Origin: Bacteroidia bacterium
GTDB lineage: Bacteria > Bacteroidota > Bacteroidia > Chitinophagales > Chitinophagaceae
DNA: 64,000 nucleotides
Direction: 5' to 3'
Assembly (NCBI GenBank): GCA_030427635.1
Contig: JAUIBA010000011.1
Coordinates: forward strand, 1 to 64,000
This document shows, one piece after another, positions 11,547-61,902 of this stretch (positions within the stretch are counted from its first letter, which is position 1; every line of letters starts with the position of its first letter). The notes beneath the pieces are model-generated. The model saw only the letters and a program-made list of their open reading frames with translations, had not been told where the DNA came from and did not search any database. Made by a program: the position numbers and the translations under genes.

Positions 11547-12929
11547 CTATATCACGCCCCATGTCACATGACTATCCTTTAGTATGCGCTCCAGTTCCCG
11601 CTCTCTTTTCTGTATCTGCAGGCGCATGGGCGATATGGCCCAGCGGGAGCGCAGCCGGGACAGGCGGTCAGAAGGTGGCAGGAATATCAACCGGCTTATC
11701 CATGTGAGCGGAGCAAAAGAACGCAGAATAGCCGAAGTTTTTACAAAGTATATTACGGTAGCGCTATCGCACCGCTCCAGCAGTTCTCTTAGCTGGGCAG
11801 CATCGGTAAAGGAAGAAATACACAATACAGCTCCTGTTTTAGGGTTAAAATACTGTATCAGGTCTTTATCGCGGTGCCAGCTGCTGTTTGTAATGATACG
11901 GGCAGTTTTTTCATCTTCAGGCACTTCGCCAGGATTTATCTGCTGGTCAGCAACAAAGCGTACATCCCACTCTTTTTTCCCCAGCGTATCATATACCGTC
12001 CATACACAGTTTTTATAATAGTTAAGCATCTCTCTCAGGTAGCCTTCCTGTAGCCACTGCTGCTTAACTGCAGCATGAAATGATGCATAGAAATACAAAT
12101 GAGATGCATAGGGTTCATATAATTCAGGAATGCGCACTACCAGCTCCCGGTTACGGGCATATACCTTCCACACAATGCGCCGCACATCATCCCCACTCTC
12201 GAAATCCTTGTAATTCAGATACTCACCCTCTACCCTTCTGAGCTGCTCTATGCGCACATCCATATTCTCAGTTTTCTTAGGGTACACCTCGGCATCTTTC
12301 TCCCCCATAAGTACCGGCGGGCGATAGAAGTGACCTGTCACCGGCTGGGCCACTGCCAGTGAGAATATGTGCAGCATATCCTGAAAGTATATGAAACCAC
12401 CTTTCAGGTCATACTCCTTCACATCAGGAAGATAAAGACGGTTTTTGCCACTTATACCGGTCCGGAATACACTTCTGGGTTTTCTCCTGTTGGTCATAAG
12501 TGCAAAATGATCAGTCATGACATTATCGTCATAGTAAAGACGCCCTTTTACAAACCCAAGCAATGGCCTGAAAACCCCTTCAAGGTGTGCAGTGAGAAAT
12601 AGCCGGCTTCGCTTACCCCGCCGTGTCTCAGTAGAAAACTCCACATTCATTACGGTTCCTTTCATGCCACGCAGCCAGGTATAGTAAAAATAGCTTGCCA
12701 GTGTGCTGAACATAGAAACCAGCACCAATGCTACTACAAACCAAAACGCCAGCTTACCCATAAGGATGATAAACGGCATAAACGGGGATGGGTAATCACC
12801 TTTGGGTGGTGGCTGATAGAGCAGTCTTAATGATAGCCATGCAGCGAGAGCACACAAAAGTGTGTTCAATGTGAAAGGGAAGTACTGCCACATGTAATAT
12901 ATACGCCACCTGAGTTGCTTACGAGTCAT
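11547..12929 (-). CDS. DUF58 domain-containing membrane protein
   Basis: 460-residue protein with two N-terminal membrane helices (about residues 15-35 and 55-80), followed by a cytosolic or periplasmic part. It contains the DUF58 signature, here RRVEGEYLNYKDFESGDD followed by RRIVWKVYARNRELVVRI, which corresponds to the family's REYxxGD..R.I.W..sAR pattern. In most genomes DUF58 proteins sit in operons with a MoxR ATPase and VWA-domain proteins. None of these is adjacent, so this is an orphan member and its role is unknown. Confidence 0.8.
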   Translation of the reverse strand: MTRKQLRWRIYYMWQYFPFTLNTLLCALAAWLSLRLLYQPPPKGDYPSPFMPFIILMGKLAFWFVVALVLVSMFSTLASYFYYTWLRGMKGTVMNVEFSTETRRGKRSRLFLTAHLEGVFRPLLGFVKGRLYYDDNVMTDHFALMTNRRKPRSVFRTGISGKNRLYLPDVKEYDLKGGFIYFQDMLHIFSLAVAQPVTGHFYRPPVLMGEKDAEVYPKKTENMDVRIEQLRRVEGEYLNYKDFESGDDVRRIVWKVYARNRELVVRIPELYEPYASHLYFYASFHAAVKQQWLQEGYLREMLNYYKNCVWTVYDTLGKKEWDVRFVADQQINPGEVPEDEKTARIITNSSWHRDKDLIQYFNPKTGAVLCISSFTDAAQLRELLERCDSATVIYFVKTSAILRSFAPLTWISRLIFLPPSDRLSRLRSRWAISPMRLQIQKRERELERILKDSHVTWGVI

Positions 12930-13060
12930 AACGGCCAGATGCGTGAAAGTATGAAAACAAGGCTGTAAAAGTTGTTAATTTTAGGCAGTCCACAGACAGT
13001 ATTGTGTAGCCCTCCCTGCCATCACAGATGACATCCATATCTGCCCTTATGAAACGGGGG

Positions 13061-13609
13061 CTATTCAGCAGTTTGTTTCTTCTCTGGCTCATAACATAGC
13101 TGTACCAGACCTGTAGCATAACTGCTACAGTTAATGAGCTTCAGCCTGATGTCAGCCCCCCCTTCCCGAAAAAGTCTGATGCCCCCACCAATGAAACAAG
13201 GAATAACCGAAATCACATACCTGTCAATCAGTTTTTCCTTCATCAGTGCATGAACCAGCTCTGCGCCCCCGTCAATAAATATATCTTTTCCCTGTTCCTT
13301 TTTTAATGTGGCAATCAGTTCTGATATCCCACTATTCCAGAAAGTGACATTTTCATCATTTCCTGCACGGCTCTTAGTCCATACATAGCACTGCCGGCCT
13401 TTATGCGGAAACGCTACACCAAAAGACAAGACTTTATCATAAGTACGACGCCCCATTATCACGGTATCTACACCTGCCACAAACTCATTATAACCATAAT
13501 CTTCTCCTGGCTGTTCTACCATGCTCAGCCAGTCAAGATTACCATCTTCCCTGGCTATGTATCCGTCTGCACTCATTGCTATGTACAGCACTACATTTCT
13601 GTTATTCAT
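13061..13609 (-). CDS. Dihydrofolate-reductase-fold protein (RibD C-terminal family)
   Basis: 182-residue cytoplasmic oxidoreductase-like protein. I chose the ATG at 13609 because MNNRNVVLYIAMSADGYIA is the conserved N-terminal strand of the family; the frame extends upstream without family similarity. Other landmarks are GNLDWLS, the dinucleotide-contact motif VIMGRRTYD, and DIFIDGGAELVHALM followed by VIPCFIGGGIRLF. These YyaP/YwjB-like proteins share the NADPH-binding DHFR fold, but true substrates are mostly unknown. Confidence 0.85.
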   Translation of the reverse strand: MNNRNVVLYIAMSADGYIAREDGNLDWLSMVEQPGEDYGYNEFVAGVDTVIMGRRTYDKVLSFGVAFPHKGRQCYVWTKSRAGNDENVTFWNSGISELIATLKKEQGKDIFIDGGAELVHALMKEKLIDRYVISVIPCFIGGGIRLFREGGADIRLKLINCSSYATGLVQLCYEPEKKQTAE

Positions 13610-13759
13610 ACTGAATGGATATTTACTACTGCAATTTAGTTCAATGAATCTGGCACCCGAAAAAGCACATATCCACATGATGTGATAAAAAAACGGTGAA
13701 GCTTGTTTCCTGACTTATTTATTTTGTATCATATTTCGCTCATCCGTCACCACAGTACC

Positions 13760-14662
13760 ATGAAGTTGCATGTCATTCTTTCCATTCCGCTATTAATATG
13801 TTCAGGTGCCGTCAGTGCACAACATACCTTCAAGGCAGGATGGAAAACATACAATACAGGCACCATTATTCACGAGTATTCCTACAAATGTGACTATACA
13901 GATACCGTGCGCCTTTATGCCACAGACAGTATGCATACTTACATCGCTGCCGACAGTGCTGTGGTACTTACAGAAGCGGTACGCGGGTACGACAAAAATG
14001 TGTATAAAACCATATACTACTTCAACCCCGGCAGACAACTGATAAAACAGGAAGACTATAAAAACGATAATCTCCTGGAGCGTAATGAATGGCGGTATGA
14101 CGACAAAAAGCGAAAGGCATCTCATATACGCAGCAGCAGCACCAATGGCAATACCTATAAGAAACTGTTTACTTACACTACAGAAAAAAGCTCCGGCGAA
14201 TCTGTAGAACAGGAATGTGCATACTTCAACGGAAAAGTAGAATTCTATACTAAAAAGTACTACGACAAAAAGAACGTCATGTACAAAGAGGTACGCCTCA
14301 ACGACAACAATAAAGACGTTGTTCATGTAGAGAACTTCACCTACGGAGAGAATGGAAAAGTGAAACAGCGTTCTGTTTACTTTCCCCAGTTCAAAGTCAC
14401 AAAAACCTTTGATGAGCCTGCGGGGATGATTCCTGCAAAGTGTTTCGGACTCAGGCCTATGGGCTCTATTGATAAAGGGCCTTCGGCCCGTATCCCCTTC
14501 ATACTACGGGTAATGGCAAAACATAAAGTGATGCTGCAGGATACCTCATGCAAGGATTATGAATACACATTCTCCAACAATACCAACTGCTTTATTACAA
14601 TCTCTTCAGGCAAAGAACCCGGTACACGTATGGTGCGGTACAGACTGAAAGAGAAAGTTTGA
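13760..14662 (+). CDS. Exported protein of unknown function
   Basis: 300 aa. The ATG at 13760 starts a signal peptide (MKLHVILSIPLLICSGAVSA) with a likely cleavage before QHTFKAG. The mature protein is rich in Tyr and Lys with short repeated strands of the type YNPGRQLIKQEDYKND and YGENGKVKQRSVYFP, reminiscent of the antiparallel strand repeats of MORN- or YD-like secreted proteins. No catalytic motif is seen. It converges on the NRPS gene with a 50-bp gap. I do not recognise the family. Confidence 0.65.
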   Translation: MKLHVILSIPLLICSGAVSAQHTFKAGWKTYNTGTIIHEYSYKCDYTDTVRLYATDSMHTYIAADSAVVLTEAVRGYDKNVYKTIYYFNPGRQLIKQEDYKNDNLLERNEWRYDDKKRKASHIRSSSTNGNTYKKLFTYTTEKSSGESVEQECAYFNGKVEFYTKKYYDKKNVMYKEVRLNDNNKDVVHVENFTYGENGKVKQRSVYFPQFKVTKTFDEPAGMIPAKCFGLRPMGSIDKGPSARIPFILRVMAKHKVMLQDTSCKDYEYTFSNNTNCFITISSGKEPGTRMVRYRLKEKV

Positions 14663-14712
14663 TAGCAGCCCACACAAGGTTGAAGCATAACTGATGCCAT
14701 ACCCGCAGCTGG

Positions 14713-17700
14713 TTATGCTGGGCGCACAGGACTACCTATCCAGTCTGTTTCGTCCTGCAGATTTTCACCTTTCATTACCAGAGAGAGTGCTTCTACATTT
14801 ACGTCATCGCCTGTCTCACTATCATAGAGTATGATACTGCGTGCACCTATACTGCAGCGCTGTCCTATTTTTATTTTACCCACCTTCATCACTCTGTCTT
14901 CAAACAGATGTGTCTGCGGGCCACAATCTTCATTGAAGGCAGTATCATCCCCTATCTCCACCATATCATACTCCGTAATATCCGTAGTATTCATCCATAC
15001 TCTTCGCCCTATTTTCACCCCGAAAAGCCTCAACGCAGCAGGCAGCCACGGGGTTCCTTTCATAAAGTCCAGCAGAAATGGTACCGCCAGTGATTCGTAA
15101 GTACTGGTTATTGCCTCGCTCAGCCATACCCGCAGCGTCCACATAGGTTGCTGCTCTGGTTTATACCGGCCTACACACAGCCATTTCAGTATTACAGTTA
15201 CCAGCAGGGCCGGCACCCCCATAAAGAAAAGGTAGTAGAAGGGCAATTCCATAGCTACACGCCACCACGGCTTATCTACTACCAGATTATCAGAATAGGC
15301 AATAAACAGAATACTACAGATGAGGATGGTAGTTTCCGGTAATATTATACGGATAAATTCAACAAGACTTCGTGCCAGCAACCTGGCTGGCGTAGGCCGT
15401 AATGTCTGTGTAGCGGCAAAGGTGCGGCTTTCCTGCCTACGTGGCAATGGAATAGCCGGAGAGCCAAACCAGTCCCTTGCATCAGTACCGGCTATCTGCT
15501 CACCCGATGGTGGAGTGGAAAGTACACCTATCAGCATACGCTCCGGCAACTTGTATCCCTGGGGAATGAGCGCACTGTTGCCTACAAAGCTGTTATCCCC
15601 TATCACCGTATGTTCCAGTATCAGCTGTTGCCCGCGTACATCGGCCTCGCCCAGTGTCACAGCATCTGCTACAAAGGCATCACTGCCTATCTCCAGCAGG
15701 GGGTGTGTTACACTGCTGGCTGTGGATATCTCGGTATTGCTACCCACCTTTGCTCCCAAAGCTCTGAACAGTAATGACACATACACCGTAGCATACATGG
15801 GGTGCATCACGATAAGGGAAAGTGACATGAGCTGGTCGGCAAACCACTTCCTTACGTAAAACAAGCTATAAATAGGGAATTTGCCTGGCTTTATACCCCA
15901 CTGCAGCACACGCGACAATAAGACGGTAGTAAGTGTAAATAGTATAATGTAGCTCAGTGCAAGAGAGGGCGTTACGGTAAGGTAACTGAAGTCATAATCT
16001 GAAGTAGAGTTATCCAGATTATGAATAATGATGATAGTTGGTAGCAGTGGCAGCAGTACTACAACAGGGAACACCAGCAGACATAAAAGGAATATACCTG
16101 AAAATGCACGCCTGCGGCCAGCCGATACCGGCAATGGCTGCGGCAACTCCTCAGGCAGTTTCTTTTCCTTCAGCACTGCGGGGCTACCCTGCCACACTTC
16201 ACCTTCTTTTATGGTTTTACCCGCTGGCAGATAACTAAGGTCCTGCAATTCGCCCCACGCCTCAATAGTAGTATCACCCGCTATTACGGCACAGCTACCT
16301 ATATATGCATGGTCACCCAGATGTATCCTGCGCAGCTTCAGCATCCCATTCTCCACCCATGCATTGTTCAGCACCGCACCTGAGCTGATACTGACATCAC
16401 TACCTATAGTCACTAAATCTTCTGCACCTATAGTAAGCGCAGCCAGTTGTGCATCCTTTGCCACTTTTACACCCAGCCTACGCAGGTGCCCCCCATATAG
16501 TGGCGTACCATTCAGGAACTGGGAAGGAAGCAGGCGCTGCATGGTTTTTACAAACCACCATCTGAAATAATAGCTACCCCATAGCGGATAATCACCTTCC
16601 TTCATACGCCCTATCACCAGCCATTTTATCACTATACTGCATAAGGCAAAAAATGGAGGGATGAAAAGGAACAGACATAATGCAGTACCTATTGCATATG
16701 GTATATTATTGGAATCTTCTTTTACTATATAGTAGCCCAGATAGGGAAAGAATATCTGTACGGCAAACAGACCATACATGAGTAGCAGAGATATGGTCTG
16801 CGCTGCCCAGCAGGTATAAAAGCGTAATGGAGGTATGGTATTAAACACCTTTTTCGCCTTGATGCCGGCTACGGGCTTCGAAGCCCAGTGCGCAGCTACA
16901 TTGCTCAGCGGCCTGTGCAGATACAGATCTTTCAGTGATGCCTGAGGCAGGGCAGCATCCTTACGCAGCCGGGATACAACTGCCGCAGCCAGCAGCGAAT
17001 GACCACCAAGGTCTGTAAAGAAATCCTGCTCAGGAGTAATAGTCCTGTTAGGGAAAAACTGTTTTAATACATCTATGAGCCTATCCTCTACCGGAGCATC
17101 TATGTCTATTACCTCATCGGTAATAGGGGTCATATTCTCCAGCAGCATAGCAGGCACCGGCAGCGCCTTCCGGTTTATCTTACCGCTTGGCAGCCTGGGC
17201 ATCTCCGGAAGCTGCACTATTACTGCAGGCACCATATAGGCAGGCAGTACTTTTGCCAGTTCCTCTCTGATACTCTGCTGATTCATGCGCACCGGGTCGT
17301 CACACACCACATATGCTGCCAGATGGTCCTGACCATTTATATCTTTCTTTACAGCCACCGCCGCCGCTGTAATGTCTGTAAGACTGCTCAGCTGGTTTTC
17401 TATCTCCCCCAGTTCTATACGATACCCTCTCAGCTTTACCTGGTCGTCAAACCGCCCCTGAAAGTCTATGCTGCCATCCTCATTTATTACGGCAGCATCA
17501 CCCGTACGGTATATTCTGCCCCCCGGCAGCTCATGTAGCGATTCCGGTTTCTGTACAAACTTTTCACTGGTCAGCTCCGGGCGGTTTATATAGCCGTTAC
17601 TCAGTCCCGGGCCTGCTATTACCAGTTCCCCCCTTTCGCCAAAAGGCAACGGATGAAGTTTTTCATCCACCACAGCCAGTGCATAGTTAGGCAATGGTAT

Positions 17701-53063: not shown

Positions 53064-53285
53064 ATGACAATTAGAAACGATGACAAAAACATGCTCACGT
53101 CACGTGAGATAGAGATTATTGAGCTCTGCGGACAGGGCCTTATTACAAAACAGATAGCCGCACAGCTAAACATAGCTGAGGATACTGTAGAAAACCACAA
53201 AAAGCACATGCGGGAGAAGCTCAATGCCAAAAACATGGTACAGGTTGTCTATCGCTATATGGTGCTTCGGCGGGAGAAAAAATGA
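53064..53285 (+). CDS. Stand-alone LuxR/GerE-type helix-turn-helix regulator
   Basis: 73 aa consisting almost entirely of the LuxR C-terminal DNA-binding domain: LTSREIEIIELCGQGLITKQIAAQLNIAEDTVENHKKHMREKLNAKN. The recognition helix is AEDTVENHKKHM. No receiver, PAS or autoinducer domain is attached. In Bacteroidota this exact form usually occurs at the end of a response regulator or propeller protein, so a free 73-aa version is unusual but known. It lies 84 bp upstream of the unknown 696-aa gene in the same direction, and the gap is filled with two inverted repeats, so it is the likely regulator of that cluster. Confidence 0.85.
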   Translation: MTIRNDDKNMLTSREIEIIELCGQGLITKQIAAQLNIAEDTVENHKKHMREKLNAKNMVQVVYRYMVLRREKK

Positions 53286-53300
53286 CCAGAAATGGTCATT
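53281..53300 (+). promoter_or_regulatory. 8-bp hairpin at the end of the LuxR-type gene
   Basis: AATGACCA (53281-53288) and TGGTCATT (53293-53300) pair perfectly across the tetraloop GAAA. It overlaps the stop codon of the LuxR-type gene. No T run follows, so it may be an operator or an mRNA structure instead of a terminator. Confidence 0.5.
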
Positions 53301-53318
53301 GTGGGCCATTGTAGGCTG

Positions 53319-53370
53319 TGATAGTTTTGATTTCTGTAAAAAACATCTTTTACCTAAATCAAAACTATCA
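53319..53370 (+). promoter_or_regulatory. 15-bp inverted repeat reaching into the start codon of the 696-aa gene
   Basis: TGATAGTTTTGATTT (53319-53333) and AAATCAAAACTATCA (53356-53370) are perfectly complementary with a 22-nt spacer. The last base of the right arm is the A of the ATG at 53370. In RNA the stem would bury the translation start; in DNA it could be two half-sites of an operator. Confidence 0.75.
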
Positions 53371-55460
53371 TGGCATCCACAATTGATCCGATTCTGACGG
53401 ACATTCAGGACATGCAGAATGCGTTCACACAACCATCCTGCAACAGTAAGTTACCTTTTGTTGAGTATCCCAGCACAGGCACACCACCGGTTATCAGCTT
53501 CAATGTACCGCAGACAACCGCATTCACTACCTATGGCCATCTCGTAAAGTATTTCCCGGAAAGCTACTTCAAGCAGTTCTGCTTTAAAATACCGGAAAAC
53601 AACTACTTTGAGATTGTGAAGAGCATGAACTCTGAGCAGACAGAAAAACTGCTTTACCCTAATGGTTTTCCCATTAGTATTGTAGATAGTAGTGGGGCTA
53701 CACATACCGTATACCGGCAGCCTGAAACTTTTGAAAACCCCTTTTCCCCCCATCGCGGCTCAGGGGGTGGAGTACTGCCCAATGCCTATCGTGCCCCGGA
53801 AGGAAATACAGCCGCTACTTCCACCTCACCCACAACATCTGCCCCTACTATCAACAGCTCTGTACTGGGTAAAATAAATGCTGCCGACCTTGCCAATAGC
53901 AATGCTACACAAAACTATCTTTCCTACGTACCAGACACTACCAAAGCAAATTTTGCTGCAAATGACCTGAGACCATACGATATTACCAGACTCAATGGTT
54001 TTGGTAAAATTACAAAATACATATCCCGCCCACCACAGCCGGTACCACGCATTATTGTCATTGAGGAATATACTACCCAATCATTCCTCGGCAACTATGG
54101 TGCTGGTCGCACAGTAAAGACCTTTTCCCTTTTCCCTGGTGAACGCACCACTATAAGCGTACGCTCATATAAAGACAGAATCACAACTAAAGAAACATCA
54201 CAAAATGTTCTGGACAGCTTCTCTGAAGCCAGTGCTACAGCGCTGGATACGCTCATGCAGCACGAGCAGGGCAATATATCCAGTACATCCAGTACATCTG
54301 GTGGCTCTGGTAGCAGTTTTACAACTACAACTGACACAAGAAACTCTGAACGCTCTTTTGGAATCAGCGCAGGTCTGAATCTTGGCTTCCTGAGTGTTGG
54401 CGGTGGCTATGGTCGTTCTCAGAGTGATGTAAGTACTACCAGTGGCGGCATGAGCAGCTCATATGATTACAGCAGCACATCTGCCCGCATGAGTAATGTA
54501 AACACCCTCAGCAGTGCCATTAATAAGCATGTACAACAAAGTAATGCCGCCAGGCAGGTAGACGTCAACACATCTACAAGTGATGTATCCCGGAGTGGCG
54601 AAGAAGAAACTATGGTACGGGAACTTCAGAATATCAATCTGAACCACACCCTTAATATGGTCTTTCGTCAGTTGATACAGGAATATACTGTTATTACTTA
54701 TTTATCTAACCTTAAGTTTGCCTATACAAACGGGTATGCAGAAAGCTATACAGTTGTAGACCTCTACAATCTGCCCAATATGCTGAAGGATATACTCAAC
54801 GATGGCGACCCCACAGTTATAGACAATGTACTATGTAAGTTGTTACAGCCATATTGTACGGTATTAAACTATAACGACGAGATTAAAACATTCGTAGAAA
54901 AATTTACTGTAAGTGGCGAAGATTGCGACTTAGGCATCACTGGCTGTGGCCTGTCCGACGAAATCTTCTATCGTCGTAAAAGTACACTTACAGACACCTA
55001 TTCTGATGGCGTTGTAGACATTACCGTAAAAGGAGTTATACTCAATGTACAGAAACAGACCTTACAGACCTCTTCTCTCATTGTAGATGCCCTCCTCGGC
55101 CGCGGCGATGCACTGGACTGCTTCAACCAGAATGCACAGAACTCAGAGAACATTGGTTCTTACATAAACAACCTGCAGGCTATGCAGCGACTCACAGACA
55201 GCATACAAACTACTGCCAACGATCAGCTGTTTGCTACTCAGAATCTGGACTTGGGCGTCAAACAGATAGAGCTGAACGAGAAGAAGGTTGCAGCATTGGA
55301 GCAGCAGATAGATGTTATTACCGGCATTGTCGATCCGCTGGAGAAAGCTACACACTACAAGAAAGTGTTTGGCGACTGCTGCGATGTACCTCAGAGCTGC
55401 TGTGGCGGCTGTGGATGCAGCGAGTGTTCCGGCACTACAGAAGAGCCAGCCACGCCATAG
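53370..55460 (+). CDS. Large protein of unknown family (696 aa)
   Basis: No signal peptide or membrane helix. Four regions are visible. About 1-230: mixed, aromatic-rich (FPESYFKQFCFKIPENNYFEIVK). About 230-300: compact strand-rich block RIIVIEEYTTQSFLGNYGAG, then LFPGERTTISVRSYKD and a helical ETSQNVLDSFSEASATALDTLM. About 300-420: Ser/Thr/Gly-rich low complexity (SSTSSTSGGSGSS, GLNLGFLSVGGGYG). About 430-696: helical, with a coiled coil (LGVKQIELNEKKVAALEQQID) and a Cys-rich tail, CCDVPQSCCGGCGCSEC. A Gly-rich hydrophobic centre flanked by helices is seen in some pore-forming and surface proteins, but I cannot name a family. First gene after the LuxR-type regulator. Confidence 0.8.
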   Translation: MASTIDPILTDIQDMQNAFTQPSCNSKLPFVEYPSTGTPPVISFNVPQTTAFTTYGHLVKYFPESYFKQFCFKIPENNYFEIVKSMNSEQTEKLLYPNGFPISIVDSSGATHTVYRQPETFENPFSPHRGSGGGVLPNAYRAPEGNTAATSTSPTTSAPTINSSVLGKINAADLANSNATQNYLSYVPDTTKANFAANDLRPYDITRLNGFGKITKYISRPPQPVPRIIVIEEYTTQSFLGNYGAGRTVKTFSLFPGERTTISVRSYKDRITTKETSQNVLDSFSEASATALDTLMQHEQGNISSTSSTSGGSGSSFTTTTDTRNSERSFGISAGLNLGFLSVGGGYGRSQSDVSTTSGGMSSSYDYSSTSARMSNVNTLSSAINKHVQQSNAARQVDVNTSTSDVSRSGEEETMVRELQNINLNHTLNMVFRQLIQEYTVITYLSNLKFAYTNGYAESYTVVDLYNLPNMLKDILNDGDPTVIDNVLCKLLQPYCTVLNYNDEIKTFVEKFTVSGEDCDLGITGCGLSDEIFYRRKSTLTDTYSDGVVDITVKGVILNVQKQTLQTSSLIVDALLGRGDALDCFNQNAQNSENIGSYINNLQAMQRLTDSIQTTANDQLFATQNLDLGVKQIELNEKKVAALEQQIDVITGIVDPLEKATHYKKVFGDCCDVPQSCCGGCGCSECSGTTEEPATP

Positions 55461-55473
55461 CTGTTGTTTTTAC

Positions 55474-55518
55474 ATCACCTGTTCCTGGTAAATGCTTCCG
55501 GGAACAGGTGATTATTTT
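55474..55518 (+). terminator. Hairpin terminator between the 696-aa and 628-aa genes
   Basis: ATCACCTGTTCC (55474-55485) and GGAACAGGTGAT (55501-55512) pair perfectly over 12 bp with a 15-nt loop, followed by TATTTT. The next gene starts 40 nt later, so it needs read-through or its own promoter. Confidence 0.75.
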
Positions 55519-55552
55519 CCCATCATTACCCATCAATATATTTCTTCTTATT

Positions 55553-57439
55553 ATGGACTCACTGGATACGATACCACCCGGAAAATACCCGGGGTCAAAA
55601 ACAAATAGTTACAAACAGCGTTACCGCAATTCCTCAGAAAGATACTACGACAGGCCGGGAGGTACAGGGGGAGAAGGCAATAGTAGCCGGGGGAGTAACA
55701 ACACCTTTCCCCGTAGCAACTTCTCTGACGATAATGCCTTTAGTCGGTCCGGTATGAATGGCGACACCAGCTATATGAGGTATAGACCTGAACCGCTATT
55801 ACGTCCGGCAGGTTTTGACAATGGCAATAGCGCTTACTTTTCAGGAGCAGACATACGTGATCGCTACGCTGGTAACAGATATAACCCTATATCTGGCATA
55901 CCTGACTACAGTAACTATAACAATTATGCTACCGGCTACAATGCCGCACATATATATGGTCCGTCACAAAATCACGACTGTTCCTGTAACGAAAAAAGCA
56001 ATCTTTTCCCCGACACAGAAAACCCTGTACTACGCAGCGCAGCCGAAGTAAAGGGACGTGCCATTGCCATGGGCAATGAAATAAGGGAGCAGGCCGGACA
56101 CATACCCAATACCGGCATGATAGCTGCTACCGACCTGCCTCAAACAGCAGGAGCAGGTAAATATTCTCAGCAGGCCATCAGAAATATGGCAATGGCAAAT
56201 GATGCGGTACAGAACGCATTGGCCGCGGGACGAAAAGTAATACTGGTAAGAGATATCACCGTAGATGGCAAGCCCGTTTCCGCATCACAGGTGCTGGGCA
56301 ATGCACAGGCGGGCGGCGCCCCGGAATATGTCGTATTTACAGGCGCGTTGAAACGCGATGGTAGCGAAGCTTCCGGCACAAGACCTGGATTTACATTCCC
56401 TGATGGTAGCCGCAGTACTGGTAGCATGACAGGCACATCATACTCATCTGACAATAATAAAAAGAAGGAAGACTGTGGATGTCATGGCAATAGCAAGGCT
56501 GGTTCCGATGTGCCAGACCTTATCAATGCCCCATGCCAGTCTACAGAGTCATTGAGAGAAGTAAGGGATATTACAAAATCAACAGGCACTGTGGGTAAAA
56601 ACGTAGAATGTCCGGAGCCCGAAGAAGGAAAAGATGGTTACTTCTATGTTACAGATAAAGAAGGAGACGATACGCACCATGCATCACGTACATTCTTCAA
56701 CATAATGAACAAATGCTGCGGTGGCTTGTTCGATGTCAACAATAAAACCGGCATGGTATCCCTGAAAAAAGGAAAGAAACCGGAAGATATAGATAAGCTG
56801 GAGGCATCAGCCACCATATCGCCCATATTGGCAAGAACCGTTATGGATGCGATAAAAGGTGGTGTGGAAATGGACGGATCAGAAAAAGAGCAGGTGGTAC
56901 GCATGCGGGTACTGCGTCAGGGCGATGATGAGGTAGACAACTTCATCCTCGACGATTTCGATTCTGGTTTTGTGGACCTTGATGATTATCAGGACCTGCT
57001 GAAGCATAACCTGCCTGGCGATGTACGAAATGAAGATAAGGTAAAACCCATATTTACCAATGCCACTACTATACAGTCATCCATCATACAGGCAGCCCTT
57101 ATAGGCCACGCTATATGCGAGCGTTTCCTGATGAAGGACTATGAAAAATACATTTCAAAGAAAAATAAAATATCTAAGGCCGAATATGAAGCAGTATATA
57201 GAAAATGGGGGGATACCCGTGCCGGAGAGATACTACGGGAAATGGTACATGCTGTAGATAATACATGGGACAAAAAAGTAGATAGCTGCGAATATACAGA
57301 AGACCCCGGCCTCGGTGTACGCATCCGCTACTATCCCGAAAAAAGCAATTGGACCTTGGCTATACTATTATACTCTTCAGCAAATCCTAAAAAGTGGGAC
57401 AGATTGGGGAGCGGCTATTTACAAAAAAAGAATCCTTAA
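55553..57439 (+). CDS. Large protein of unknown family (628 aa) with disordered N-terminus
   Basis: The ATG at 55553 (MDSLDTIPPGKYPG) is preferred; the frame extends back into the terminator and previous gene without coding character. Residues about 1-180 are low complexity, rich in Tyr, Asn, Gly, Ser and Arg. Cys clusters occur as HDCSCNEK and EDCGCHGNSK. The C-terminal ~260 residues look globular (GYFYVTDKEGDDTHHASRTFFNIMNKCCGG; IQSSIIQAALIGHAICERFLM; GEILREMVHAVDNTWDKK; GVRIRYYPEKSNWTLAILLY). The GHAICE and EMVHAVD segments could hold a metal site, but HExxH is not present. Disordered leader plus globular tail resembles a delivered effector; this is inference. Confidence 0.78.
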   Translation: MDSLDTIPPGKYPGSKTNSYKQRYRNSSERYYDRPGGTGGEGNSSRGSNNTFPRSNFSDDNAFSRSGMNGDTSYMRYRPEPLLRPAGFDNGNSAYFSGADIRDRYAGNRYNPISGIPDYSNYNNYATGYNAAHIYGPSQNHDCSCNEKSNLFPDTENPVLRSAAEVKGRAIAMGNEIREQAGHIPNTGMIAATDLPQTAGAGKYSQQAIRNMAMANDAVQNALAAGRKVILVRDITVDGKPVSASQVLGNAQAGGAPEYVVFTGALKRDGSEASGTRPGFTFPDGSRSTGSMTGTSYSSDNNKKKEDCGCHGNSKAGSDVPDLINAPCQSTESLREVRDITKSTGTVGKNVECPEPEEGKDGYFYVTDKEGDDTHHASRTFFNIMNKCCGGLFDVNNKTGMVSLKKGKKPEDIDKLEASATISPILARTVMDAIKGGVEMDGSEKEQVVRMRVLRQGDDEVDNFILDDFDSGFVDLDDYQDLLKHNLPGDVRNEDKVKPIFTNATTIQSSIIQAALIGHAICERFLMKDYEKYISKKNKISKAEYEAVYRKWGDTRAGEILREMVHAVDNTWDKKVDSCEYTEDPGLGVRIRYYPEKSNWTLAILLYSSANPKKWDRLGSGYLQKKNP

Positions 57440-57445
57440 AAATGA

Positions 57446-58642
57446 ATGAATATGGCAGTAAATGTTATAAGTACTTGTAATGCACTTGCATCAAAAAAAA
57501 CGGCAACAAAGTCATTCCCTCGATGGCAAACGAAGGAAAAACCAAAATTCAAAACAGTATTTATAGAAAAATTGACAGGTAAATTTCTTGGAGAGAATGT
57601 ACTATATTCTGACCCAGAAGACCCATTGAATATCACTTTCCCAAGTATGACCATCCTCAATAAAAAAGGTAGACCGGCAGAGACTCTTGGCATAAATGTC
57701 CGGTCAATTCCAAATGTGGGTCTTATAGAACCCTATACTAAGATTGAATATCCAAAAGACTTTGACAATAACATATTCGATAACGTTAGCGCATCACTGA
57801 AATTTGATCGCAACACATGTGAAGCACAAATACTGAAAGAAATTGAGCCTAATGAGAAAGGAAGCCGAACCGAACAAAATCTTGTATTCAAGTATAGTCA
57901 GGAAATGGGCACCCTCTCAGCAGCGGTTTTACCTGACACTATTAATACTAACAAAAGCATTCCTGCATCACAAAATTCACCAGCGAGAGAAGAAGGAATC
58001 TCATATGGAATAGCAGCCTGTGCATTGACTGTGACAAATGGTACTTTTCTAATTCCCGATGCAAAAAACACAGACTATGAAAAGTATTTAGGTCGAACCA
58101 ATACAACAATTAATGAATTTAACGAAGAGTTAACAACCGCAAAAATATCAGGACATAATTATCCACAAACACTTTGGGGTTTAGCGATGTATATTTTTGT
58201 GATACTTAATGACAATTTATATAACCTATCTTATAGCGCTGAAAAGAAGGCAAAAGCGTGGAGTTGCAGCGACCTTCTTTTTGAGATGGCTCAGAATAAC
58301 AAGGAACCCGTTATTAGTGAATCGCACACACACCCTGATTTGAGAACAGCTGAACAGAAACAACAAGATAATCCGCAGTCTCAAGGTACTGGAAAGGTAT
58401 ATGATTTTACTAGACAAAAAGTTGAAAAACATCACACAAAACTTGACCTTGATAGAGTTAAGAAAATTGAGCTACCCATGTTAATCATTTCTATCAGAGG
58501 AAAAACTGTAGCCCCCTTTGAAGTTCTATATAAAACCGCAAAAAATAAAGATGACGTTACTGTTATAGCAAAGAGTAAGAAAGAATTTATCGATAAGCTT
58601 GACATCTTATATTACAATTATCTTCTCACAAAGTATTTTTAA
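57446..58642 (+). CDS. Protein of unknown family (398 aa)
   Basis: Starts 6 nt after the previous stop, so it is translationally coupled to the 628-aa gene; an ATG at 57452 is also possible. No signal peptide. It contains KFKTVFIEKLTGKFLGENVLY, a possible beta-rich N-terminal domain, a hydrophobic helix WGLAMYIFVILNDNLYNLSY at about residues 247-266, a His/Asp segment SESHTHPDLRTAEQKQQD and a Lys-rich C-terminus with IELPMLIISIRGKTV. The DNA is visibly more AT-rich than the two genes before it, which hints at a separate origin. No family is recognised. Confidence 0.78.
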   Translation: MNMAVNVISTCNALASKKTATKSFPRWQTKEKPKFKTVFIEKLTGKFLGENVLYSDPEDPLNITFPSMTILNKKGRPAETLGINVRSIPNVGLIEPYTKIEYPKDFDNNIFDNVSASLKFDRNTCEAQILKEIEPNEKGSRTEQNLVFKYSQEMGTLSAAVLPDTINTNKSIPASQNSPAREEGISYGIAACALTVTNGTFLIPDAKNTDYEKYLGRTNTTINEFNEELTTAKISGHNYPQTLWGLAMYIFVILNDNLYNLSYSAEKKAKAWSCSDLLFEMAQNNKEPVISESHTHPDLRTAEQKQQDNPQSQGTGKVYDFTRQKVEKHHTKLDLDRVKKIELPMLIISIRGKTVAPFEVLYKTAKNKDDVTVIAKSKKEFIDKLDILYYNYLLTKYF

Positions 58643-58708: not shown

Positions 58709-59194
58709 ATGAAATACATCATCATTATACTCACCATTATTCTCTATGGTTGTGGCTCATCCCACCATCTGAAAAAAATACCTGAAGGAGTAAATGTATA
58801 TTATGTATTCAAAGAGCTGGAAGAACATCTCTATAAGGTTATTACCATTAAATGTCCTGATTGCACTCCTGCTGTTATAATTGATCCTAAATGCTCATGG
58901 TCTTCATATAAAGTTAAACATGTCGCTGACAAATATCGCGCCAACACATACGATTTCATTATTGGGCGCCCTAACGAATTGATAAAAAGTGAATTTATTA
59001 AAAAATCTAACTCATACTTATATCTTAAGGGGCACCTCTACCCTATATATATTGCTGTATATGACATACTATTAGGGCTGGATGTCTATACTGAGTCCTC
59101 CCAATTGCATGGAACTATACGTTACATCGACCATATGCCTACTGATATTGTAGTTGTGGACATGTCCAGAAAAAAAATACTTAAGAAATTTTGA
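58709..59194 (+). CDS. Lipoprotein, tandem family member 1
   Basis: 161 aa with lipobox (ILYGC, lipidated Cys at about residue 15). It shares with the genes at 59205, 62762 and 63270 the order YxxF-x-x-LE near residue 40, then a CxxC-like pair (KCPDC), a GIxIDPKC-type strand (AVIIDPKCSW), a late block ending in (L/V)PIYIAVYD and a hydrophobic C-terminal strand (TDIVVVDMSRKKIL). No known domain is recognised. Its gene ends 10 nt before the next family member starts, so the pair is cotranscribed. Confidence 0.75.
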   Translation: MKYIIIILTIILYGCGSSHHLKKIPEGVNVYYVFKELEEHLYKVITIKCPDCTPAVIIDPKCSWSSYKVKHVADKYRANTYDFIIGRPNELIKSEFIKKSNSYLYLKGHLYPIYIAVYDILLGLDVYTESSQLHGTIRYIDHMPTDIVVVDMSRKKILKKF

Positions 59195-59204
59195 TAAAAT
59201 CAAC

Positions 59205-59753
59205 ATGCGACTTTTATCCATAATATTATTCATCGCAATTACAATCCTACACCTTCAGTGCGGTAGAAAGCAATACCCGGTCGATCTCGCAGAACCTTCC
59301 ATGCCTTTCACAAAAGACACGATTGCCTATCGCGTTTTCGACTCCTTAGAAAATTATCTCGCGGCAAACTTAAAAGACAAAAATGGGAACCCTGCCATTG
59401 GTATTCTTATTGACCCAAAGTGTACATACTGTCCGGAAATAAAAAAATATCATTATGAATGGAGAAACTTAATGGGCATGAATATTCTCTACCGGCATAA
59501 TGATAAAGGATGTGAAGAATACATGAGTGCACTGAAAAACACAACCAGACGTTTACATATAAAAGACACCATGCTCCCTGTATTATTCATTGCTATTGAT
59601 GGAGTACTGACAAAAAAATATCAGAAAAAGCACTTCTCTTACGATTCTGCACATATACCTTGTTATAATTTTCGCGATGCATTGATTGTGAATATTCCTG
59701 CAATGACCTTTTTTAAACAGAACGATACAAGCTTCCTGCACTGGCAAAAGTGA
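59205..59753 (+). CDS. Lipoprotein, tandem family member 2
   Basis: 182 aa from the ATG at 59205, which gives the lipoprotein signal MRLLSIILFIAITILHLQC. Family features: AYRVFDSLENYLAANL, GILIDPKCTYCPEI with a CxxC pair, RRLHIKDTMLPVLFIAIDGVLT, and a C-terminal strand DALIVNIP. It follows member 1 with a 10-nt gap. Function unknown; the CxxC could be redox-active or metal-binding, but no thioredoxin fold is evident. Confidence 0.75.
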   Translation: MRLLSIILFIAITILHLQCGRKQYPVDLAEPSMPFTKDTIAYRVFDSLENYLAANLKDKNGNPAIGILIDPKCTYCPEIKKYHYEWRNLMGMNILYRHNDKGCEEYMSALKNTTRRLHIKDTMLPVLFIAIDGVLTKKYQKKHFSYDSAHIPCYNFRDALIVNIPAMTFFKQNDTSFLHWQK

Positions 59754-60216: not shown

Positions 60217-61902
60217 ATGAAAAAAATATACACTTACCTTATCACACTATGCCTTTCCGGCATCACCGCCGCCTCATCACAAACAATAAACACCTACGCA
60301 GGCACAGGAGCCTCTGGTAGCACAGGTGATGGTGGCCCCGCCACCGCAGCCACATTCGGCATTTGTCACGGCATGGCTACAGACACATATGGCAACCTCT
60401 ACATTGCCGATGCTGTAAGCCATAAAATAAGAAAAGTAACACCCGGCGGAGTAATTTCTACATTGGTGGGCACCGGTGTCGCAGGCTATAACGGCGAAGG
60501 CATCGCCATTGGCCTTGCACAAATTAATAACCCTTACGACCTCACCATAACACCGTCCGGCGATATCTATTTCTGTGAAACCGCCGGCAATCGTGTACGC
60601 AGAATTACAGAAGGCGTAGTAAGAACAGTTGCTGGCGATGGTGTTTCCGGCTTCACCGGTGATGGCGGCCCCGCTACTGCCGCCCGGGTCAACGGCCCCT
60701 CTGGCATCACTACCGATGCCGCAGGCAATGTCTATTTCTCTGATGGTGGCAATAACCGGATTCGTAAAATAAGCACATCCGGCGATATTACTACAATAGC
60801 AGGCACCGGCGCCACCACCTTCATCGGCAGTGGGCTGGCAGCTACCGCCACACCGCTCAATCATCCTAACTTCCTATGCCTCGATGCCAGCGGCAATCTG
60901 TATGCCTCCATTAACGGCTACAACAGGATAATAAAAATAGATGCCATTGCAGATACCGTTACCGTAGTAGCCGGAAACGGTGCTGCTGCTGCCAGTGGCG
61001 ACGGCGGCCCCGCTACTGCTGCAGGCATAGGAGCCCCTGCCGGGCTCACATTTGACCGCAATGGCAACCTGTTCATCGTGGCCAATCAGCCATATAACAA
61101 CAATGTACGCATGGTAGCCCCCGATGGCACCATCAGTACCTTTACCGGCACTGGTGCCACTACCTCTACAGGTGATGGCGGCCCTGCCGTAGCCGCCTCG
61201 GTCAACAGGCCCATTGATATAGTAATAGACGATTGCGACAGGATATATGTATCAGAAGGCAATGGCAGAAGAGTACGCAGCATACTGTACGACAATCGCG
61301 CCCCACTCTTTGCCAATGGCGCATCCCTTACAGTTACCATGTGCGCCACCACTGCCGATAGCACCACCACCGATACTACCATAAGCACCGGCATCGCCAT
61401 CATTGATACAGACCGTTGCCAGACAGAAACATGGACCATAATACATCCCCCTGTATATGGTACACTAACCGGCACACCCGCTCCGGCTACCGCTACAGGC
61501 ACACTCATTACACCTGCGGGCTTTACATATAGCCCGGCTGTAGGCTATACCGGCTGGGATACCGTTATCGTACAGATATCAGACGGTACTCTCAGCGATA
61601 CCTTTACCTACTATGCGCACATATTACCCTGCACCCTCGGCATGCCAGGCTCCCCATCCGGGCAAAGCAATCTGTCTATACATCCCAATCCCGGCAATGG
61701 AATGTTCACAATTACCATGCCTGCCGCATACCGCGACAGGACAGATGTAACTATTACCGACATCACCGGTAAAACAGTAAAAACATTCTCTTTTGAACCC
61801 AGTGGCACAGAACACTTCCTTTTCACAGCGCCTCTAGGCACCTATATATTATTAGCCAGGCAGAACGACATGCGCTGGGTACAAAGACTCATAGTCAACT
61901 AA
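60217..61902 (+). CDS. Secreted NHL-repeat protein with T9SS sorting domain
   Basis: 561 aa with a signal peptide (about residues 1-20). At least five NHL propeller repeats are visible, each with the pattern GDGGPATAA...GI..D..GNLYIAD...IRKV (for example residues 30-75, 145-190, 265-310). The C-terminal ~85 residues begin LSIHPNPGNGMFTITM and end WVQRLIVN, the type A T9SS sorting signal. Between them is a Thr-rich linker domain with three Cys. NHL propellers usually bind proteins or glycans. The product is expected outside the cell or on its surface. Confidence 0.88.
   Translation: MKKIYTYLITLCLSGITAASSQTINTYAGTGASGSTGDGGPATAATFGICHGMATDTYGNLYIADAVSHKIRKVTPGGVISTLVGTGVAGYNGEGIAIGLAQINNPYDLTITPSGDIYFCETAGNRVRRITEGVVRTVAGDGVSGFTGDGGPATAARVNGPSGITTDAAGNVYFSDGGNNRIRKISTSGDITTIAGTGATTFIGSGLAATATPLNHPNFLCLDASGNLYASINGYNRIIKIDAIADTVTVVAGNGAAAASGDGGPATAAGIGAPAGLTFDRNGNLFIVANQPYNNNVRMVAPDGTISTFTGTGATTSTGDGGPAVAASVNRPIDIVIDDCDRIYVSEGNGRRVRSILYDNRAPLFANGASLTVTMCATTADSTTTDTTISTGIAIIDTDRCQTETWTIIHPPVYGTLTGTPAPATATGTLITPAGFTYSPAVGYTGWDTVIVQISDGTLSDTFTYYAHILPCTLGMPGSPSGQSNLSIHPNPGNGMFTITMPAAYRDRTDVTITDITGKTVKTFSFEPSGTEHFLFTAPLGTYILLARQNDMRWVQRLIVN

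Follow-up and report, generated by a model that had tools for sequence, protein, structure and literature searches.

A stand-alone carrier beside exchangeable partner genes in a Bacteroidia bacterium: a proposed polymorphic toxin system in pieces

A stretch of 64,000 nucleotides from a Bacteroidia bacterium of the Chitinophagaceae (GenBank assembly GCA_030427635.1, contig JAUIBA010000011.1, positions 1 to 64,000; hereafter the window) carries a cluster of same-strand genes for three large proteins, namely a carrier (P1, 696 aa), P2 (628 aa) and P3 (398 aa), preceded by a small regulator and followed by two lipoprotein-like genes (LP1 and LP2). We propose, with a probability slightly above one half (about 0.55), that the cluster represents a polymorphic toxin system in pieces, with a predicted pore-forming carrier, a swappable and likely toxic partner, and likely immunity proteins encoded behind. 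The reasons are a constant carrier, varying partners of which some have toxin domains, partner swaps and a third gene often predicted to encode an exported protein. Comparison of the loci shows that the carrier is conserved and that closely related carriers can have different genes beside them; known wall-cutting or toxin domains are present in some of these neighbours.

A database search among 5.8 billion proteins returned at least 123 further members of the carrier family, and a pattern-based scan of 84,980 species genomes revealed carrier relatives in 110 stretches. Eighty of these were retained as loci (designated L with a number) for further counts, and 76 were analysed, as L014, L037, L053 and L075 gave no parsed carrier open reading frame (ORF). 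A same-strand gene, referred to here as the partner, lies within 600 nt after the carrier in 67 of the 76. Five of these genes (L033, L035, L058, L062 and L065) were removed by eye from the partner set as ordinary neighbours or spurious ORFs, and the upstream partners of L033, L036 and L040 as well as P2 were added. The resulting 66 partners, among which some doubtful rows remain, fall into 50 groups. The three upstream cases are alphaproteobacterial loci with the tagged partner in front of the carrier and not behind it.

The majority of the partners, and of the genes following them, match nothing known. Pfam searches with the 67 downstream genes matched 40 families; among the 25 listed, Tae4 and Peptidase_M15_3 were each found twice (2/67), and VanY, M23, Amidase_3, LysM, SH3_3, PG_binding_1, DUF4329, DUF6402, DUF6973 and GH5 once each. 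Ordinary neighbours (an MmeI enzyme, a helicase, a nitroreductase, an oxidoreductase) are likewise among the Pfam matches, and they make up most of the 25 listed of the 116 families matched in NCBIfam. The partner in L017 has a sub-threshold match to an L,D-transpeptidase. The HExxH motif is present in 11 of the 66 partners, as compared with 0.45 in shuffled sequences. The gene after the carrier on a Sinorhizobium meliloti plasmid is annotated as polymorphic toxin type 44 and contains an Ntox44 domain (E 7e-18). No known toxin domain was found in P2 of the window with Pfam, NCBIfam or PHROGs.

Closely related carriers indicate that partners are exchanged. The carriers of L031 and L034 are 92% identical, whereas significant similarity between their partners is limited to nine N-terminal residues (100%); the L034 partner is a Tae4 protein, and behind each of the two lies a small gene of its own that has a hydrophobic start. 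Three Chryseobacterium carriers, 83–88% identical, each have a different partner, and only 45 N-terminal residues are common to two of these partners; among these loci the signal-bearing third gene occurs in L013 only. The leader was kept and the end changed in L003, L004 and L011, and the end was kept and the leader changed in L003 and L082. Close carriers retaining the same partner were also observed (L049/L050, L070/L071, L033/L036/L040 and L056/L076).

The N-terminal parts of the partners point to a candidate short tag. Of 61 non-redundant partners, 11 contain NPW or NPY within their first 60 residues, versus 10 of 664 background proteins, and 15 have the pattern [VI]L[NDST][TSKN] near the N-terminus, versus 35 of 664; both patterns were picked after inspection of the sequences. 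Expectation maximisation returned a cargo motif modestly above shuffles (184 vs at most 168; 255 vs at most 241). The NPW tag does not cluster on the carrier tree (7 changes for 8 rows). In P2 the candidate, NPVLRSAAEV at residue 157, is a weak match (score 6.5, the best being 12.8) that fails the regular expressions of the tag.

Behind the partner, a gene for a protein shorter than 420 aa starts within 150 nt in 38 of the 67 loci. A signal-peptide- or lipoprotein-like start was predicted, by our own hydrophobicity rule, for 26 of these 38 third genes versus 171 of 530 other flanking ORFs, a background that includes spurious ones. All 26 signal-bearing genes belong to Bacteroidota except those in L039 and L028, the latter a Competibacteraceae bin with a carrier near the Bacteroidota ones, and none was found among the eight Bacillota or the three Actinomycetota loci with a downstream gene. 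L041, too, is binned as Competibacteraceae with a carrier placed near those of Bacteroidota; the bin of L028 and L041 may be contaminated. The third protein, where predicted to be exported, would likely protect the producer. Four loci have, close to the unit, members of one small family with signal-like starts (L020 4557-5030, L022 4213-4740, L026 13217-13681, L030 4631-5074); two members scanned gave no Pfam match, and it is possibly an immunity family.

In the window, the third-gene place is taken by P3, which has no signal by sequence, and LP1 and LP2 come after it. LP1 begins 66 nt past P3 on the same strand as the rest of the unit, and LP2 is its paralogue. The four-gene extent given by the first-pass annotation left out both genes, and the unit likely continues past P3 to position 59753. 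The GC content of P3, LP1 and LP2 (35–38%) differs from that of P1 and P2 (46%) and of the window (45%), and the tail of the unit therefore has its own composition. P3 had no relative in the protein database search, and P2 had at least four. A relative of P3 directly follows a relative of P2 in L005 (31.9% identity over 279 aa, E 5e-25), so that P2 and P3 travel together in two loci; the L005 copy (13962-14726) is interrupted by a stop in frame and cut off by the end of the contig. P3 could be a second effector, a chaperone or an immunity protein, and P3, LP1 and LP2 are all candidates for protection against P2. The existence of relatives for each of P1, P2 and P3 indicates that all three are real genes.

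The stretch of P2 from residue 360 to 523 can be aligned with the end of the partner in L008, and P2 matches a second partner-type gene in L007, where the first partner, a small signal-bearing gene and the P2-matching gene follow one another (12211-15402). Three related partner-type genes stand after one carrier in L010 (12223-20064), and they are related to genes of L022 and L030. Modelling of P2 from a five-row alignment gave a pLDDT of 41, too poor to use. The first-pass annotation had asked whether the three large proteins co-occur. They do so as positions, a carrier and a partner, and not as these particular proteins: among the loci kept, the P2 family as a whole stands behind one other carrier, together with the P3 relative (L005), because the partner is swapped.

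The carrier would be the part that moves the partner. In the proposed sequence of events, carrier and partner leave the producer by lysis or another route, with the shared N-terminal stretch of the partner docked onto the carrier. The carrier would then bind the envelope of a target cell, possibly by means of the LamG, Ig-like or peptidoglycan-binding domains fused to some family members, and its Gly/Ser-rich centre would insert as a beta-hairpin pore through which the partner could pass into the periplasm or wall space of the rival. The exported third protein would shield siblings in that same compartment. In the window, the partner would correspond to P2, a co-inherited second component to P3, and the immunity lipoproteins to LP1 and LP2.

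A pore-forming translocator is our best candidate mechanism for the carrier. The structural model has a pLDDT of 62 and a pTM of 0.56. Its Foldseek list is rich in pore-forming toxins, every match being weak, and Foldseek and VIA together gave weak matches to many beta-pore-forming toxins of the aerolysin/Toxin_10/CDC-like class. The sole structural match below E 0.001 is a predicted protein of the virus Yasminevirus, entry A0A5K0U6Q4 in BFVD (E 1.9e-8, 16% identity over 535 columns). In the model, residues 302-364 form a loop of low confidence that joins helices 286-300 and 369-394. In the central region, aligned to residues 301-368, hydrophobic alternation exceeds that of shuffled sequences (p <0.05) in 18 of 63 carriers versus 34 of 750 control windows. 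This aligned-region test is the only alternation test that came out positive; the strongest alternating segment of the carrier lies outside the central region, being central in 2 of 26 cases with 2.0 expected, and only 26 of the 77 carriers could be parsed for that test.

The absence of leaders raises the question of whether the carrier leaves the cell at all. Signal-like starts are missing in 75 of 76 carriers and 63 of 67 partners (present in one and four, respectively), the carrier gene adjoins the partner gene, and the long helix of the carrier resembles scaffold coiled coils in structural matches. All these features would suit a chaperone or adaptor that stays in the cytoplasm and passes the partner on to general secretion, such as the type IX secretion system (T9SS), without being delivered itself. 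We nevertheless consider it unlikely. The LamG, Ig-like and peptidoglycan-binding fusions suggest that the carrier itself reaches the outside, and family members occur in Bacteroidota, Bacillota, Actinomycetota and an archaeon, which to our knowledge have no common secretion route of such kind. The T9SS sorting domain Por_Secre_tail was not found in P1, P2 or P3 with Pfam; a sub-threshold match to it occurs in the partner of L015.

Somewhat less probable still is that the carrier is an adaptor, spike or tail part of a contractile injection system, either extracellular (eCIS) or a type VI secretion system (T6SS), that delivers the partner. Tae4 is a named T6SS effector family, and eCIS show a sparse spread over phyla that resembles the carrier's. 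Like T6SS Tae4 pairs, the two Tae4 partners (L013 and L034) are each followed by a gene with a signal-like start; unlike in those pairs, the neighbour here is this carrier. In a hand-picked set of 28 carrier genomes, a match to the sheath family Phage_sheath_1 (PF04984) at E 0.001 or better was found in eight, six of them over the family cut-off. No sheath match was found in the other 20, that of L013 among them, or in the bacterium's own genome, and on these grounds a contractile system was rejected as a candidate. A TssC search of the own genome was negative though uninformative, as the controls were silent, so that the rejection does not extend to a T6SS of the Bacteroidota type. Gene groups recurring in at least four loci within 10 kb comprise the carrier, P2 relatives, two-component regulators, ABC ATPases, MatE, YceI and the small signal-bearing family, a list that also speaks against the contractile explanation. 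Judged by these tests, neither a contractile machine nor any other neighbour seems to be needed by the unit.

An anti-phage or abortive system, in which a membrane-damaging protein and an enzyme would act inside the producer, would account for leaderless carriers and partners and for a sparse spread suggesting transfer. It is improbable: the peptidoglycan-enzyme domains of several partners have their substrate outside the cytoplasm, and export is often predicted for the third protein. A defence system was also tried as a candidate and rejected, since PADLOC gave nothing for the three window proteins and four relatives below E 0.037, the value of a weak methyltransferase-like match on P2. The first-pass annotation had offered a delivered-effector or a surface-assembly system. 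The former gains from the constant carrier, the swappable partner with toxin domains in some relatives and the immunity-like gene, predicted to be exported, that often lies behind it in Bacteroidota; the latter, a scaffold with a surface protein, fits the long low-complexity leader of P2, the Cys-rich tail of the carrier and the Ig-like repeats on carriers, but it found no separate support and is very improbable, as the partners are unrelated, several are enzymes, and they are swapped between near-identical carriers.

The carrier family is rare and patchy. A carrier profile run against 395 same-phylum genomes returned the single copy of the own genome and two weak partial matches, and a search of 298 genomes of the order found P2 in its own genome only. 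The carrier loci span 11 named phyla, ten bacterial and one archaeal (the archaeon Halorubrum). In a quick tree of 71 carriers the placement of the Bacteroidota takes five or more changes on branches with good support. The Halorubrum carrier groups with those of a planctomycete and of Evansella (Bacillota) with an SH-aLRT support of 100%. This pattern suggests horizontal transfer, with the reservation that bins and paralogues can mislead. The sole plasmid record among the relatives is the conjugative plasmid of S. meliloti, where the carrier, the Ntox44 partner and a third gene (L086, 5188-9060) adjoin the conjugation genes. No carrier relative was found in viral_contigs, where 23 stretches fit a pattern and none was confirmed, or in a phage collection searched with two queries, and a phage origin of the unit was rejected on this absence.

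A broader reading would be delivery without a machine, by a horizontally spread pore-forming translocator found in ten bacterial phyla and an archaeon that takes almost any enzyme with a short N-terminal tag into competing cells, a matching exported immunity protein being present in Bacteroidota hosts. We advance it tentatively, at somewhat less than even odds.

Polymorphic toxins are usually fused to a trafficking part or ride on a large secretion machine. In the present loci a single stand-alone protein makes up the constant part, beside some fifty unrelated partner groups. Polymorphic toxins as a kind are known; a stand-alone carrier of an unnamed family serving them looks like the new part. 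Separate pore-forming carriers with an enzyme are found in binary (A+B) toxins and among Toxin_10/aerolysin-type pore formers. The arrangement proposed here is similar, and the carrier has weak fold matches to beta-pore formers. No sequence relation to these toxins was found, though, and the present partners often contain wall-enzyme domains and change between close relatives.

In polymorphic toxins, as described in the available part of the survey of Zhang et al. 2012 (PMC3482391), variable toxin domains recombine behind constant leaders. Likewise, leaders are shared here with differing C-termini and the reverse, some relatives contain known toxin domains (Tae4, M15/VanY, M23, Amidase_3, Ntox44, and DUF4329, which is Tox-JAB-2 there) or HExxH peptidases, and many loci have an immunity-like gene downstream. 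Trafficking domain and toxin are, on the other hand, not in one polypeptide: the carrier, from an unnamed family, is a protein of its own, the partner has a short tag or leader only, and the delivery routes given in that part of the survey do not describe the carrier. TANFOR toxins, in the portion of PMC7073777 at hand, are large proteins of Bacteroidetes that have a TANFOR domain at the N-terminus and are linked to T9SS; they resemble the present system as polymorphic toxins of Bacteroidota with a downstream immunity gene, and differ from it in that carrier and toxin are separate here and no T9SS tail was found on P1–P3. The Streptomyces umbrella particles, according to the accessible sections of PMC11062931, are multi-protein assemblies of a polymorphic toxin with a repeat-based secreted scaffold and lectin tips, and such scaffold features were not seen here. 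We found no description of this carrier in the literature searched, a scope that left out bioRxiv and most subscription papers, nor in the available part of PMC3482391.

If the carrier does translocate its partners, it would provide a compact general route of protein delivery in microbial competition. If the proposal is true, the carrier could also serve as a marker gene for the discovery of new toxin and immunity families.

The features of the unit are listed in Table 1. The ORF list agrees with the layout first described, four genes in one direction for proteins of 73, 696, 628 and 398 aa and a 6-nt gap between P2 and P3, as does the AT-rich character of the third large gene (35.7% GC versus 45.7% for P1 and 46.4% for P2; 45.2% for the whole window). 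The three large proteins were said to be of no known family, and no significant Pfam, NCBIfam or PHROGs match was obtained for any of them. A sequence search of PDB likewise returned no significant match for P1, P2 or P3 (best E 2.6 with the carrier profile). The start of P2 at ATG 55553 is preferred over an alternative in-frame ATG at 55415, which would give 674 aa, because the relatives align from about 55553.

Table 1. Positions and proposed roles of the features of the unit in the window
Feature	Position	Strand	Basis or remark
Free LuxR/GerE-type helix-turn-helix (HTH) protein, 73 aa, likely regulator of the unit	53064..53285	+	Pfam GerE, E 1.9e-19; GerE/response-regulator genes near other carriers
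P1, constant carrier, 696 aa, predicted pore-forming translocator	53370..55460	+	Family members, structural model, Foldseek list
Gly/Ser-rich centre of the carrier, residues 302-364, candidate membrane-spanning hairpin	54273..54461	+	Hydrophobic alternation; loop in the model
Long helix of the carrier, residues 580-651; the coiled coil of the first-pass annotation	55107..55322	+	
P2, swappable partner, 628 aa	55553..57439	+	Long leader of low complexity, small beta domain, likely toxic C-terminal domain
NPVLRSAAEV in P2, candidate cargo tag	56021..56050	+	Resembles NPVLNTxxV of other partners; weak match
P3, co-inherited partner of P2, 398 aa	57446..58642	+	Relative behind a P2 relative in L005
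LP1, lipoprotein-like, candidate immunity protein	58709..59194	+	N-terminal hydrophobic stretch then Cys; region where relatives have signal-bearing genes
LP2, lipoprotein-like paralogue of LP1, candidate immunity protein	59205..59753	+	24% identity to LP1 (pairwise blastp, E 4e-6)

The first gene of the cluster is indeed a free LuxR-type HTH, as had been noticed, and it is the likely regulator of the unit. Among the 76 loci, GerE or response-regulator genes were seen a short distance upstream of the carrier in just five (L003, L006, L007, L010 and L012), all Bacteroidota: short GerE-like proteins in L003 and L006, and response regulators in L007, L010 and L012. These genes were sought by tblastn in three loci and by eye in the rest, from listings of upstream ORFs shorter than 230 aa. 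The regulator is not a general part of the system. Downstream of the unit, the window encodes an NHL-repeat protein with a borderline T9SS sorting tail (60217-61902).

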